Part shown: piece by piece, positions 59,544 through 62,173 of the stretch
Numbering within the stretch: the first letter of the stretch is position 1
Layout: every line of letters starts with the position of its first letter
Assembly (NCBI RefSeq): GCF_007197885.1
Contig: NZ_VKKG01000007.1
Location: 1 to 64,000, forward strand
Source of the DNA: Tessaracoccus rhinocerotis
GTDB taxonomy: Bacteria; Actinomycetota; Actinomycetes; Propionibacteriales; Propionibacteriaceae
Direction of reading: 5' to 3'
DNA: 64,000 nucleotides
Notes under the pieces: generated by a model
Database searches by the model: none
Told to the model about the DNA's origin: nothing
Seen by the model: the letters and a program-made list of their open reading frames with translations, nothing else
Program-made: the position numbers and the translations under genes

Positions 59544-59888
59544 ATGTCCGTACAGATCAAGCGTGTCTATGAGGAGCCGTCTGACGACGACGGCTTCCGC
59601 GTGCTGGTGGACCGGCTCTGGCCGAGGGGAGTGTCCAAGGAGAACGCCGCCGTCGACCTGTGGAGCAAGGAGGTGGCACCCTCGCCGTCGCTGCGCAAGG
59701 CCTACCACCACGAGGGCATGGGCTGGGAGTCGTTCAGGGCCCGCTACGAGGTGGAGCTGGACGGCAACGACGCCGTCGGAGAGCTGCGCGAGCGGCTCAA
59801 GGACCACGACGTCGTCACCCTCCTCTACGCCACCGACGACGAGGAGCACAACCATGCAGTCCTGCTGAGGCAGCGGCTGACCGACTGA
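59544..59888 (+). CDS. DUF488-family protein
   Basis: A 114-residue protein with the full DUF488 pattern: IKRVYEEPSDDDGFRVLVDR, LWPRGVSKENAAVDLWSKEV, APSPSLRKAYHHEGMGWESF, RARYEVELDGN and DVVTLLYATDDEEHNHAVLL. Length and motifs are those of the single-domain YeaO-like members. The function is unknown; the conserved RVLVDRLWPRG suggests nucleotide or phosphate binding. ATG 59544 is used over an upstream start at 59529. Its stop abuts the 3' end of the convergent DUF4097 gene. Confidence 0.87.
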   Translation: MSVQIKRVYEEPSDDDGFRVLVDRLWPRGVSKENAAVDLWSKEVAPSPSLRKAYHHEGMGWESFRARYEVELDGNDAVGELRERLKDHDVVTLLYATDDEEHNHAVLLRQRLTD

Positions 59889-60731
59889 CTACGTCGCCGC
59901 CGCCAGGTCCGCGCCCAGGTGGGCGATGGCGATGTCGCCCGAGATCGTCCGCAGCCGCAGCTCGACGAAGGGTGCACCGTCGTCCGGCTTGCCCAGCTGG
60001 GCGAGGTGGGACGTGATCTCGCCGGTGAGGGTGGTGACGTCGGTCCAGACCGGCACCCCGGCTGTGACGCCGACGACGATGTCACCCGAGGCCGTGCGGG
60101 CCTCGAGCGATCCGCCGTCTAGCTCCCTGACCAGGATGTCGCCGCTGGCGGTGCTGATCTCGGCCCCGCCCAGCGGGCCGGCCACGCGGACGTCGCCGGA
60201 CCCGTTCTTGGCGGTCAGGACGCCTCGCACGGCGGTGACCACGAGCTCGCCGGAGCCTAGGTTGGCCAGCAGGTCCTCGGTGACCTCACGGAGGTGGAGG
60301 TCGCCGGAGCCGGCGCGGACCGAGCCCCTGCCCGTCACGCCGTTGACGTGCAGGCCGCCGGAGCCGGTGACCACCTGGAGGCTCGCGACGTCCTCCAGCG
60401 TGATGTCCCCGGAGCCGCAGTTCAGCGCGACGTCGCCGAGCGTGCCGGTGGCGACGAGGTTGGTGTCGCCGAGCAGGCCGCGCAGGCTGCTGCCTCCGGG
60501 GGCGCTGATCCCGACGCGGAGCGGCTGGCCGGTGCGGGTGACTCCCCGGCGACGCGGTCCGGTGATGACGATGGTGCCGTCCCGCTGTTCGACGGTGGTC
60601 TCCCCGGCGCCGTCGCCGTCGACCGTCACGAGGGTCTGGCCGTCCAGCTCGCCGGTGACCAGTTCGATGTCACCCGAGCCCACCTCGACCACGATCGTGG
60701 GCAGGGCGGGGGTGGTGAAGATGTGTTCCAT
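59889..60731 (-). CDS. DUF4097-family beta-helix protein
   Basis: A 280-residue protein made of regular short beta-strand repeats with GSGDI/ASGDI turns: VVEVGSGDIELVTGELD, LNCGSGDITLEDVASLQV, VRAGSGDLHLREVTEDLLA, NLGSGELVVTAVRG, AKNGSGDVRVAGPLGGAEI, STASGDILVRELDG, RTASGDIVVGVTAGVPVW and LRTISGDIAIAHLG. This is the DUF4097 adhesin-like beta-helix. No signal peptide or membrane segment is seen, so it is probably cytoplasmic. It lies 26 bases downstream of a HicB-like gene, a pairing that suggests a common unit. Function unknown. Confidence 0.85.
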   Translation of the reverse strand: MEHIFTTPALPTIVVEVGSGDIELVTGELDGQTLVTVDGDGAGETTVEQRDGTIVITGPRRRGVTRTGQPLRVGISAPGGSSLRGLLGDTNLVATGTLGDVALNCGSGDITLEDVASLQVVTGSGGLHVNGVTGRGSVRAGSGDLHLREVTEDLLANLGSGELVVTAVRGVLTAKNGSGDVRVAGPLGGAEISTASGDILVRELDGGSLEARTASGDIVVGVTAGVPVWTDVTTLTGEITSHLAQLGKPDDGAPFVELRLRTISGDIAIAHLGADLAAAT

Positions 60732-60757
60732 GGTGCTTCCTCGATCCTGTTGGATGA

Positions 60758-61288
60758 TCAGGCCCAGCCGGTCATGCGCCGACCGGGGTGCGGCGGGCGC
60801 GGGGGCTTGGGTGGGTAGTTGAAGTTGAAGCCCTGGCCGCGCAGGTTGATGCGCACGCCGGTGGTGGTGGCATCGCGCACCGCGTCGACCAGCCAGCTGT
60901 TCAGCGACTGGCCGGCCTCTTCGGCGAGCTCCTCGGCGCGGGTCTTGAGGCCCTCCGGGAGGCGCAGGGTGATGCGGATCTGGTCCCCGCCCTCGTCGAC
61001 CGGTTCGGGCTGGTCGGGGTAGCTGGGCTCCGGTTCCTCGTGGGGGGCGATGCCGTCGAGGACGAACTCGACGGAGCGGCCGCGCAGGCGGGCGTCGATG
61101 CTGCCCGACGGGAGTTCGGTGGTGATCTCCGCGGCGGCGTCCGTGAGCGCCTCGAGCAGTACGAGCCTGACCGCCGGGTCCACCGCCGCGAGCACCCGCT
61201 GGGCTGCCGCCACGATCTCGGGCCCGCCCAACTCAGTGGCTGCCGACACCTCGGCCCGCAGCCTTTCGACATATGTGGTGAGTTCCAT
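60758..61288 (-). CDS. HicB-like protein with C-terminal ribbon-helix-helix domain
   Basis: A 176-residue protein. The C-terminal ITLRLPEGLKTRAEELAEEA plus GQSLNSWLVDAVRDA is an Arc/CopG-type ribbon-helix-helix that resembles HicB antitoxin DNA-binding domains. The N-terminal 80 residues (ELTTYVERLRAEVSAATELG, AAVDPAVRLVLLEALTDAA) are helical and unlike HicB pseudo-nuclease domains. A basic, Pro-rich tail (NFNYPPKPPRPPHPGRR) ends it. No HicA gene is adjacent; the partner is the DUF4097 gene. ATG 61288 lies inside an operator-like repeat; no SD is seen. Confidence 0.75.
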   Translation of the reverse strand: MELTTYVERLRAEVSAATELGGPEIVAAAQRVLAAVDPAVRLVLLEALTDAAAEITTELPSGSIDARLRGRSVEFVLDGIAPHEEPEPSYPDQPEPVDEGGDQIRITLRLPEGLKTRAEELAEEAGQSLNSWLVDAVRDATTTGVRINLRGQGFNFNYPPKPPRPPHPGRRMTGWA

Positions 61289-61317
61289 GACACCAGCATG
61301 ACACCATAATGGTGTCA
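61288..61317. promoter_or_regulatory. RHH operator: TGACACCA direct and inverted copies
   Basis: TGACACCA occurs at 61288 and 61299 and inverted (TGGTGTCA) at 61310, at 11-base steps. The last two form the perfect 19-base palindrome TGACACCATAATGGTGTCA. It overlaps the start of the HicB-like gene, as expected for autorepression by a ribbon-helix-helix protein. Confidence 0.65.
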
Positions 61318-61356
61318 ACGCAAGGGCTTTGTGACGTCATGCTGACGCCTCGGCGT

Positions 61357-61391
61357 CTTGTCCGACAAGTTGCGTTGACTTGCCGAACAAG
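61357..61391. promoter_or_regulatory. paired GntR operators upstream of the FadR-type gene
   Basis: CTTGTCCGACAAG (61357-61369) is a perfect 13-base palindrome and CTTGCCGAACAAG (61379-61391) a related imperfect one, 22 bases apart (about two helical turns). They lie 63 to 97 bases upstream of the regulator start and match the size and symmetry of FadR/GntR sites. Confidence 0.6.
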
Positions 61392-61453
61392 ACCCCTCCA
61401 GAATTGCGGCATCGAGCGGTAAGGCTCACTCAGTGCTGAGGTGGAGGTGCGAC

Positions 61454-62173
61454 ATGTATGACAAGTTGGGTCACGACAAACTCGTGATGCAGCTGGTTGA
61501 CCATCTCCGTTCCCTGAACATCCGGGACGGCATGGCGCTCCCGAGCGAAGCCAGCCTCATGTCGGACCTCGGGCTCGGCAGGCAGCAGCTCCGCGAGGCG
61601 CTTCGCGTCCTGGAGGGGTTCGGGGCCATCGAGGCGAGGCAGGGCGCGCGGCGTCGCTGGCGTGGCGTCCACCTGGGTGAGCTCGTCTCGTTGTCGGCCC
61701 AGCTGATCGGCTCGCCGCACCAGACCCTCGCGGAGCTCCTGGCCGTGCGCCAGGCGCTCGAGACGTCGATGCTCGCCAAGGTGATCCAGCTGCACACCCG
61801 CAGCAGCCTGGACGAACTGCTCCGCATCGGCCACGCCATGGAGGAGCGCGCCCACGAGGGCAAGTCGTTCGCCGACCTCGACGAGCAGTTCCACCTCGGA
61901 CTCTTCGCGCCGTTGGGGAACGACACCCTGGAGGGCATCGTCGGCGCCTTCTGGACCCTGCTCGACGTCGTCGAGCACGAGAACCCGAGCGTGGCCGTGG
62001 ACCCCGTGGTGGCGGAGATGCACACCGCCATCGTCGAGGCCATCGTCGAGGGCGACTACGACCTAGCCGTCCACGAACTGGACACACATTTCTACGGGGT
62101 GCGTCGTCGGGTCTCCCGGCGCAGCACCACCGCACCAAGCGCAGCGCCCGCGCATCGCAGCACCGTGCGCTGA
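61454..62173 (+). CDS. FadR-subfamily GntR transcriptional regulator
   Basis: A 239-residue regulator. The winged HTH (about 5-70) shows DKLVMQLVDHLRSLNIRDGM, ALPSEASLMSDLGLGRQQLR and EALRVLEGFGAIEARQGARR. The C-terminal FCD all-helical domain has LLAVRQALETSMLAKVIQLH, DLDEQFHLGLFAPLGNDTLE (metal-ligand Asp/His) and EMHTAIVEAIVEGDYDLAVH. It stands 34 bases upstream of an ABC binding-protein gene in the same direction, so it probably regulates that sugar operon and itself via the paired palindromes at 61357-61391. ATG 61454 has GGAGGTG upstream. Confidence 0.87.
   Translation: MYDKLGHDKLVMQLVDHLRSLNIRDGMALPSEASLMSDLGLGRQQLREALRVLEGFGAIEARQGARRRWRGVHLGELVSLSAQLIGSPHQTLAELLAVRQALETSMLAKVIQLHTRSSLDELLRIGHAMEERAHEGKSFADLDEQFHLGLFAPLGNDTLEGIVGAFWTLLDVVEHENPSVAVDPVVAEMHTAIVEAIVEGDYDLAVHELDTHFYGVRRRVSRRSTTAPSAAPAHRSTVR

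Follow-up and report, generated by a model that had tools for sequence, protein, structure and literature searches.

A predicted autorepressed ribbon-helix-helix/Toastrack gene pair with a conserved operator array in Tessaracoccus rhinocerotis and other actinobacteria

We analysed a 64,000-nt stretch of the Tessaracoccus rhinocerotis genome (contig NZ_VKKG01000007.1), referred to here as the window. An initial annotation had noticed in it a HicB-like ribbon-helix-helix (RHH) protein paired with a DUF4097 protein, and ORF analysis, Pfam searches and the operator array described below agreed with this observation. The two genes are in tandem on the minus strand, with the DUF4097 gene 26 nt downstream of the RHH gene (Table 1). 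The next gene after DUF4097 is a convergent DUF488 gene (59544-59885) located directly behind the unit; its best Pfam match was the 'inactive' N3i subclade. No ABC ATPase or permease gene was present at that place, and an ABC operon, considered as a candidate, was absent from the window. The window unit is a bare two-gene core with no exporter cargo.

Table 1. Genes, protein segments and predicted regulatory elements of the RHH-DUF4097 locus (positions in the window)
Feature	Position	Strand	Basis or remark
RHH (HicB/Arc-like) repressor gene, predicted	61288..60758	-	176 aa; ORF, Pfam HicB/Arc; ATG start, without Shine-Dalgarno sequence
Ribbon-helix-helix domain, residues 105-140, strand R-I-T-L-R	60869..60976	-	Pfam match 106-140
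Conserved C-terminal tail RRMTGWA, preceded by a variable Pro-rich linker	60761..60781	-	Tail comparison
Shine-Dalgarno-like GAGGAAG of the DUF4097 gene	60736..60742	-	From sequence
DUF4097 (Toastrack) beta-helix gene	60731..59889	-	280 aa; Pfam 54.7 bits
Predicted transcription start, A of ATG, leaderless	61288	-	Inferred from promoter geometry and no Shine-Dalgarno sequence in 122/122 loci
Predicted operator half-site 3, TGACACCA	61288..61295	+	Overlaps A of start codon; position kept in relatives
Predicted -10 element CATGCT	61295..61300	-	Straddles half-sites 2 and 3; CANNNT in 92/92 scored loci
Predicted operator half-site 2, TGACACCA, one palindrome arm	61299..61306	+	Exact match, kept in relatives
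Predicted operator half-site 1, TGACACCA, other palindrome arm	61310..61317	-	Exact match, kept in relatives
Predicted -35 element TTGCGT, 17-base spacer	61318..61323	-	TTG in 117/122 loci
Further predicted half-site TGACGTCA	61332..61339		22 bases upstream, in register
Further predicted half-site TGACGCCT, 7/8	61343..61350		In 11-base register

The RHH protein matched the Pfam families HicB (PF05534; 22.6 bits, cut-off 21) and Arc (21.6 bits), both barely above the cut-off. PF05534 was also matched by 27 of 30 relatives at E ≤ 0.01, and the window protein has the C-terminal RHH domain of HicB. Residues R105, R109, P111, K115, S128, N130 and W132 were invariant in 30 aligned RHH sequences. The N-terminal domain of about 80 residues is conserved, with R41 invariant and R67 near-invariant, and it matched no Pfam family. 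The structure model of the protein was poor (pLDDT 43.9) and insufficient to account for this domain.

The DUF4097 protein scored 54.7 bits against its Pfam family (cut-off 22.9). It contains a run of about nine [GAI]SG[DGE][ILV] repeats, in line with the 'about eight GSGDI repeats' counted originally. Its structure model was confident (pLDDT 89.1, pTM 0.84), and Foldseek with this model gave 4opw as the best match (E = 2.8e-6); the Toastrack structures 3ljy and 3pet, and 4qrk, were also matched. The window protein thus has the beta-helix of the Toastrack fold. It scored 34.1 bits against LiaG (NCBIfam NF049997), for which the cut-off is 285. It is the only DUF4097 protein in the whole genome.

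Five predicted half-sites at 11-base steps form an array at the start of the RHH gene. One register is skipped, and the skipped register holds the predicted -35 element. The 11-base steps were as first annotated; however, the array had been placed over the start codon and ended at 61317, whereas it overlaps only the A of the ATG and extends to about 61350. The perfect 19-base palindrome reported earlier was recovered at 61299-61317 (9+1+9). It was the sole match in the window even at 3 mismatches (mean for shuffles, 0.25) and the sole exact match in the 3.55-Mb genome. The array accounts for three of the four exact copies of TGACACCA in the 64 kb. Two adjacent degenerate half-sites (TGRYRYCA-N3-TGRYRYCA) were found nowhere else in the genome (control, 0), and the three-site form had no second place in the genome up to 3 mismatches (reversed control, 3). 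The -10 element runs from the end of half-site 2 into the start of half-site 3, and the -35 element lies just before half-site 1; therefore, the transcript should begin at the ATG. We infer a leaderless promoter covered by the predicted sites of its own repressor.

RHH relatives were found in 45 of 147 family genomes, 139 of 394 class genomes and 32 of 246 genomes of a phylum sample. When 44 loci were aligned on the ATG, positions -7 to -1 were almost fixed (T in 44, G in 43, R in 43, one free position, G in 44, T in 40 and C in 44), with two further half-sites at -18 and -29 and a TTG at about -35. This footprint backs the start codon of the RHH gene. Together with 78 class loci, the set comprised 122 loci; in scoring them, we let the three sites move as a block by at most 2 bases relative to the ATG. 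A consensus score of at least 20 out of 26 was reached in 106 of the 122 loci. Among 24,400 positions drawn at random from these loci, 24 reached it; such positions could fall on the operator itself and in some cases did. Without the shift, one lineage with an array one base off scored low; most low-scoring loci had a 10- or 12-base step between sites, and the motif was not missing. A half-site 21 or 22 bases upstream was present in 26 and 39 of the 122 loci, respectively. TTG was found near -35 in 117 loci, a Shine-Dalgarno sequence in 0 of 122, and the hexamer at -12 to -7 was CANNNT in every one of the 92 loci of standard register.

Operator and RHH gene also occurred together. The DNA pattern alone matched 26 of 196 genomes order-wide (reversed pattern, 0 of 196). 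Three loci picked in this way (L215, L216 and L219) all had the RHH-DUF4097 pair, and the pattern sites of L217 and L218 are away from any RHH gene. Among the class genomes, the operator was found in 104 of 139 with the RHH gene versus 7 of 255 without it; the reversed control in this search matched 12 of 394 genomes (counted from the listing). The operator is less widespread than the gene pair, as 7 of the 20 loci from outside the class showed no visible array in the 62 bases printed. In one relative (L173), the operator has decayed.

The intergenic space also contains elements on its far side. A TTGTCCGACAA-type palindrome, which we take to be of GntR type, is present in two imperfect copies at 61352-61396 (19-nt arms, 84% complementary). 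The copies precede a divergent FCD/GntR regulator gene (61454-62170) and its sugar-ABC genes, and this side is probably a second autoregulated unit in the common intergenic space. A perfect 10-base inverted repeat, GTCAACGCAA/TTGCGTTGAC (61314-61323 and 61370-61379), links both divergent promoter regions.

In 138 of the 146 loci examined across the phylum, the window included, DUF4097 was directly downstream of the RHH gene and in the same orientation. These comprised 38 of 43 first-set relatives, 75 of the 78 class loci, all 20 loci from outside the class and all 4 plasmid records. The class loci were selected from the listed places and do not represent all 139 positive genomes; L215, L216 and L219 entered through the search with the DNA pattern. 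The co-occurrence survey proposed with the initial annotation thus found conserved linkage. This phylum-wide linkage, the near-invariant operator on the unit's own promoter and the co-occurrence of operator and RHH gene support the ideas, also raised there, of an autoregulated two-gene unit and a sensor pair.

DUF4097 was lacking in eight loci (L048, L057, L062, L074, L076, L173, L200 and L203); in L048, counted as 'no DUF4097' among the 122, the RHH gene is at a contig end. L200 and L203 (f5 genomes) have an RHH gene with a recognisable operator and neither DUF4097 nor the G-W tail described below. Their RHH genes are perhaps solo descendants of the unit.

G-W or G-Y plus 0-3 residues formed the C-terminal end in 112 of the 122 RHH proteins of the family and class, behind a variable linker that is often Pro/Gly-rich. 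Of the 122 loci, 111 had both the tail and DUF4097 and 7 had neither (one of them at a contig end); 3 had DUF4097 but no tail (L007, L205 and L206), and 1 had the tail but no DUF4097 (L173). In proteins from outside the class, the tail is variable and at times missing despite the presence of DUF4097. On a tree of 145 rows, with G-F ends scored as tail and L048 left out, DUF4097 presence changed 4 times and the tail 5 times, and seven RHH proteins retained DUF4097 without the tail. Because only two independent co-changes were seen (p about 0.5) despite the striking raw counts, docking of Toastrack by the C-terminal RHH tail is put forward as a suggestion, a lead only.

The genes accompanying the pair were compared among relatives. 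In 30 of the 122 units, the pair is followed directly by a gene for a DrrA-type ABC ATPase, which is absent from that place in the other 92; one such ATPase was scanned and scored 320 bits with TIGR01188, above the NCBIfam drrA cut-off. P450 genes come after the ABC genes in L193 and L210; in L183 and L212, they lie a short way downstream of the pair. A Tap-like MFS transporter gene overlaps the DUF4097 gene by 4 bases in one family unit (L040), a Streptomyces lunaelactis record has the order RHH-DUF4097-P450-ferredoxin, and three Streptomyces plasmids have the order 'HicB antitoxin'-DUF4097-ABC-ABC. Second operators away from the RHH gene directly precede an ABC exporter (G107, L218), an MFS exporter (G156, L250) and a P450 (G413, L259). 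Because drug exporters are often beside the unit in relatives, the unit probably senses stress or xenobiotics rather than acting as a toxin-antitoxin system. The window unit has neither an exporter nor a second operator, so the xenobiotic role rests on the relatives.

Other operator matches were set aside as targets owing to weak sites or no clear target gene (L252-L255, the second site of L256, L257, L260 and L261), and the operator of L251 (G166) precedes a truncated RHH start. In L217 (5002-5030, G074), a perfect three-site operator has TTGACT in front and no convincing gene behind; that genome also carries an RHH-DUF4097 unit. In L258 (3879-4001, G500), an operator is followed by a 41-aa remnant that by eye is like the C-terminus of an ABC permease, and then by a P450 gene. 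This is apparently a decayed RHH-DUF4097-ABC-P450 operon with its promoter kept.

The window RHH protein clustered with Ornithinimicrobium (85% identity; SH-aLRT 100) rather than with 39 RHH proteins of its own family, and the RHH gene was found in only 1 of 13 other genomes of the genus. The window copy was likely gained horizontally. The genes that flank it in the window were not recovered next to the copies in Ornithinimicrobium. In an empty-site comparison within the genus, DUF488 was present in 9 of 21 genomes, and the other window flanks were found at the window's own locus only.

Comparison among loci established the array, the promoter-like geometry and the operon order, and the RHH gene has a conserved half-site array on its own promoter, as expected of an RHH autorepressor. 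The RHH-Toastrack unit appears to be an old actinobacterial switch that shuts off its own promoter. RHH dimers would bind the 11-base-spaced TGRYRYCA half-sites, one per DNA turn, presumably in a cooperative manner with one dimer per half-site on one face of the DNA. The predicted array would cover the -35/-10 spacer, the -10 element and the start of the leaderless promoter, and by covering it RHH would repress its own gene and the co-transcribed Toastrack gene. Toastrack, as a putative cytosolic beta-helix platform, would most likely sense or relay an envelope or xenobiotic insult and engage RHH, perhaps via the C-terminal GW tail, to relieve repression. In many relatives, the same promoter would drive drug exporters and P450s, or a second operator copy precedes them. 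Judging from sequence comparisons, we favour, at a probability of about 0.6, a switch that represses itself and responds to xenobiotics or envelope stress, in which Toastrack is the sensing or anti-repressor partner. The full version, a phylum-wide one-operon stress switch in which a soluble Toastrack beta-helix, in place of a kinase or a ligand-binding domain, captures the conserved RHH G-W tail and frees a leaderless promoter with its core elements embedded between half-sites, with exporters and P450s as interchangeable cargo, is speculative and, taken as a whole, rather unlikely.

Other arrangements of the same parts were considered. RHH may be activating, or Toastrack may be a corepressor. 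RHH could also be a one-component sensor, whose N-terminal domain binds a small hydrophobic ligand and releases the DNA, leaving Toastrack as an induced effector of membrane-proximal protection with no contact to the repressor. The conserved N-terminal domain and its arginines are consistent with this idea, and six loci (L057, L062, L074, L076, L200 and L203) have RHH and operator without DUF4097; however, the association of Toastrack with RHH is tighter than that of any transporter, and the tail is missing in 6 of the 7 loci truly without DUF4097. We consider it possible but unlikely, and in our judgement the N-terminal domain is about half as likely to be the sensor as Toastrack is to be the sensor or anti-repressor. 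A PSP-like envelope-stress module, in which induced Toastrack assembles a sub-membrane complex and the exporters of relatives are incidental, would agree with the recurrent ties of Toastrack to PspC/Lia systems given in the Toastrack section of PMC11237479 and with the fact that most units, including that of the window, have no neighbouring transporter. Yet a hydropathy scan found no membrane segment in the window DUF4097 protein, no PspA or PspC relative was among the six window proteins scanned near the unit, and exporters or P450s recur both as passengers and as targets of extra operators. We consider such a module unlikely as well.

The remaining proposal was a non-classical toxin-antitoxin system, with RHH as the antitoxin and DUF4097 as the toxin. 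The unit is small, apparently autoregulated and composed of two genes, its presence is patchy with a window copy likely gained horizontally, and public records annotate the RHH protein as 'toxin-antitoxin system HicB family antitoxin'. However, the lack of a HicA partner noted initially extends to the whole genome, in which no HicA (PF07927) was found at E ≤ 0.001 (a control search matched 7 of 14 named genomes), and the PADLOC-DB 2.0.0 defence models gave 0 families for the RHH and DUF4097 proteins. In addition, Toastrack is a scaffold fold, and no enzyme family was found for this partner; RHH genes persist without DUF4097, and RHH-DUF4097 operons of relatives carry exporters and P450s as passengers. 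We therefore dropped this proposal as very improbable. The 'HicB family antitoxin' label in public records steers readers to the wrong biology.

If the favoured switch with Toastrack as sensing or anti-repressor partner is correct, the Toastrack fold gains a tractable minimal two-gene regulatory system whose own operator is a ready reporter, and its proposed docking role becomes directly testable. It would also link Toastrack to the drug export and P450 genes of antibiotic-producing actinobacteria.

Ravi et al. 2024 defined Toastrack and proposed it as a docking platform for signalling; one sentence in the Toastrack section mentions an actinobacterial transport operon with RHH, Toastrack and ABC genes (PMC11237479). 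The window unit shares RHH and Toastrack with that operon, and many of its relatives share the ABC ATPase and permease; unlike the operon, the window unit is the two-gene core only, without ABC genes. In the Toastrack section of that paper, nothing is said of an operator array or a leaderless promoter, nor of an RHH tail or a core shared across the phylum. Within the open-access literature searched (subscription papers aside), no paper joined DUF4097 and HicB, and Toastrack together with ribbon-helix-helix appeared only in PMC11237479. In the same body of papers, that section included, we came across no account of the operator code or the leaderless promoter, nor of the two-gene core across the phylum or the tail of the RHH protein; the RHH and Toastrack operon itself is already mentioned there.

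Lun1-Lun2 of the lunaemycin cluster of Streptomyces lunaelactis are listed with unknown function in a table of PMC9866976. Lun1 is related to the RHH protein of the window, Lun2 belongs to the DUF4097 proteins, and the two are again in tandem; unlike in the window, a P450 and a ferredoxin follow Lun2, inside a biosynthetic cluster. Table 3 of PMC13101518 lists a single-gene 'HicB family antitoxin' of Rhodococcus opacus 1CP as up on styrene, which we did not count as evidence. Compared with HicAB, the DNA-binding domain of the window RHH protein matches Pfam HicB, but its partner is Toastrack and its N-terminal domain matches no Pfam family; membership was rejected because no HicA toxin gene is adjacent. 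RHH repressors of the MetJ/Arc type bind as multi-dimer arrays, and the MetJ box AGACGTCT is repeated at 8-base steps. The window operator is likewise a predicted multi-dimer array, and its half-site TGACGTCA resembles the MetJ box; it differs in its 11-base steps, and the window protein has a different N-terminal domain and a Toastrack partner.
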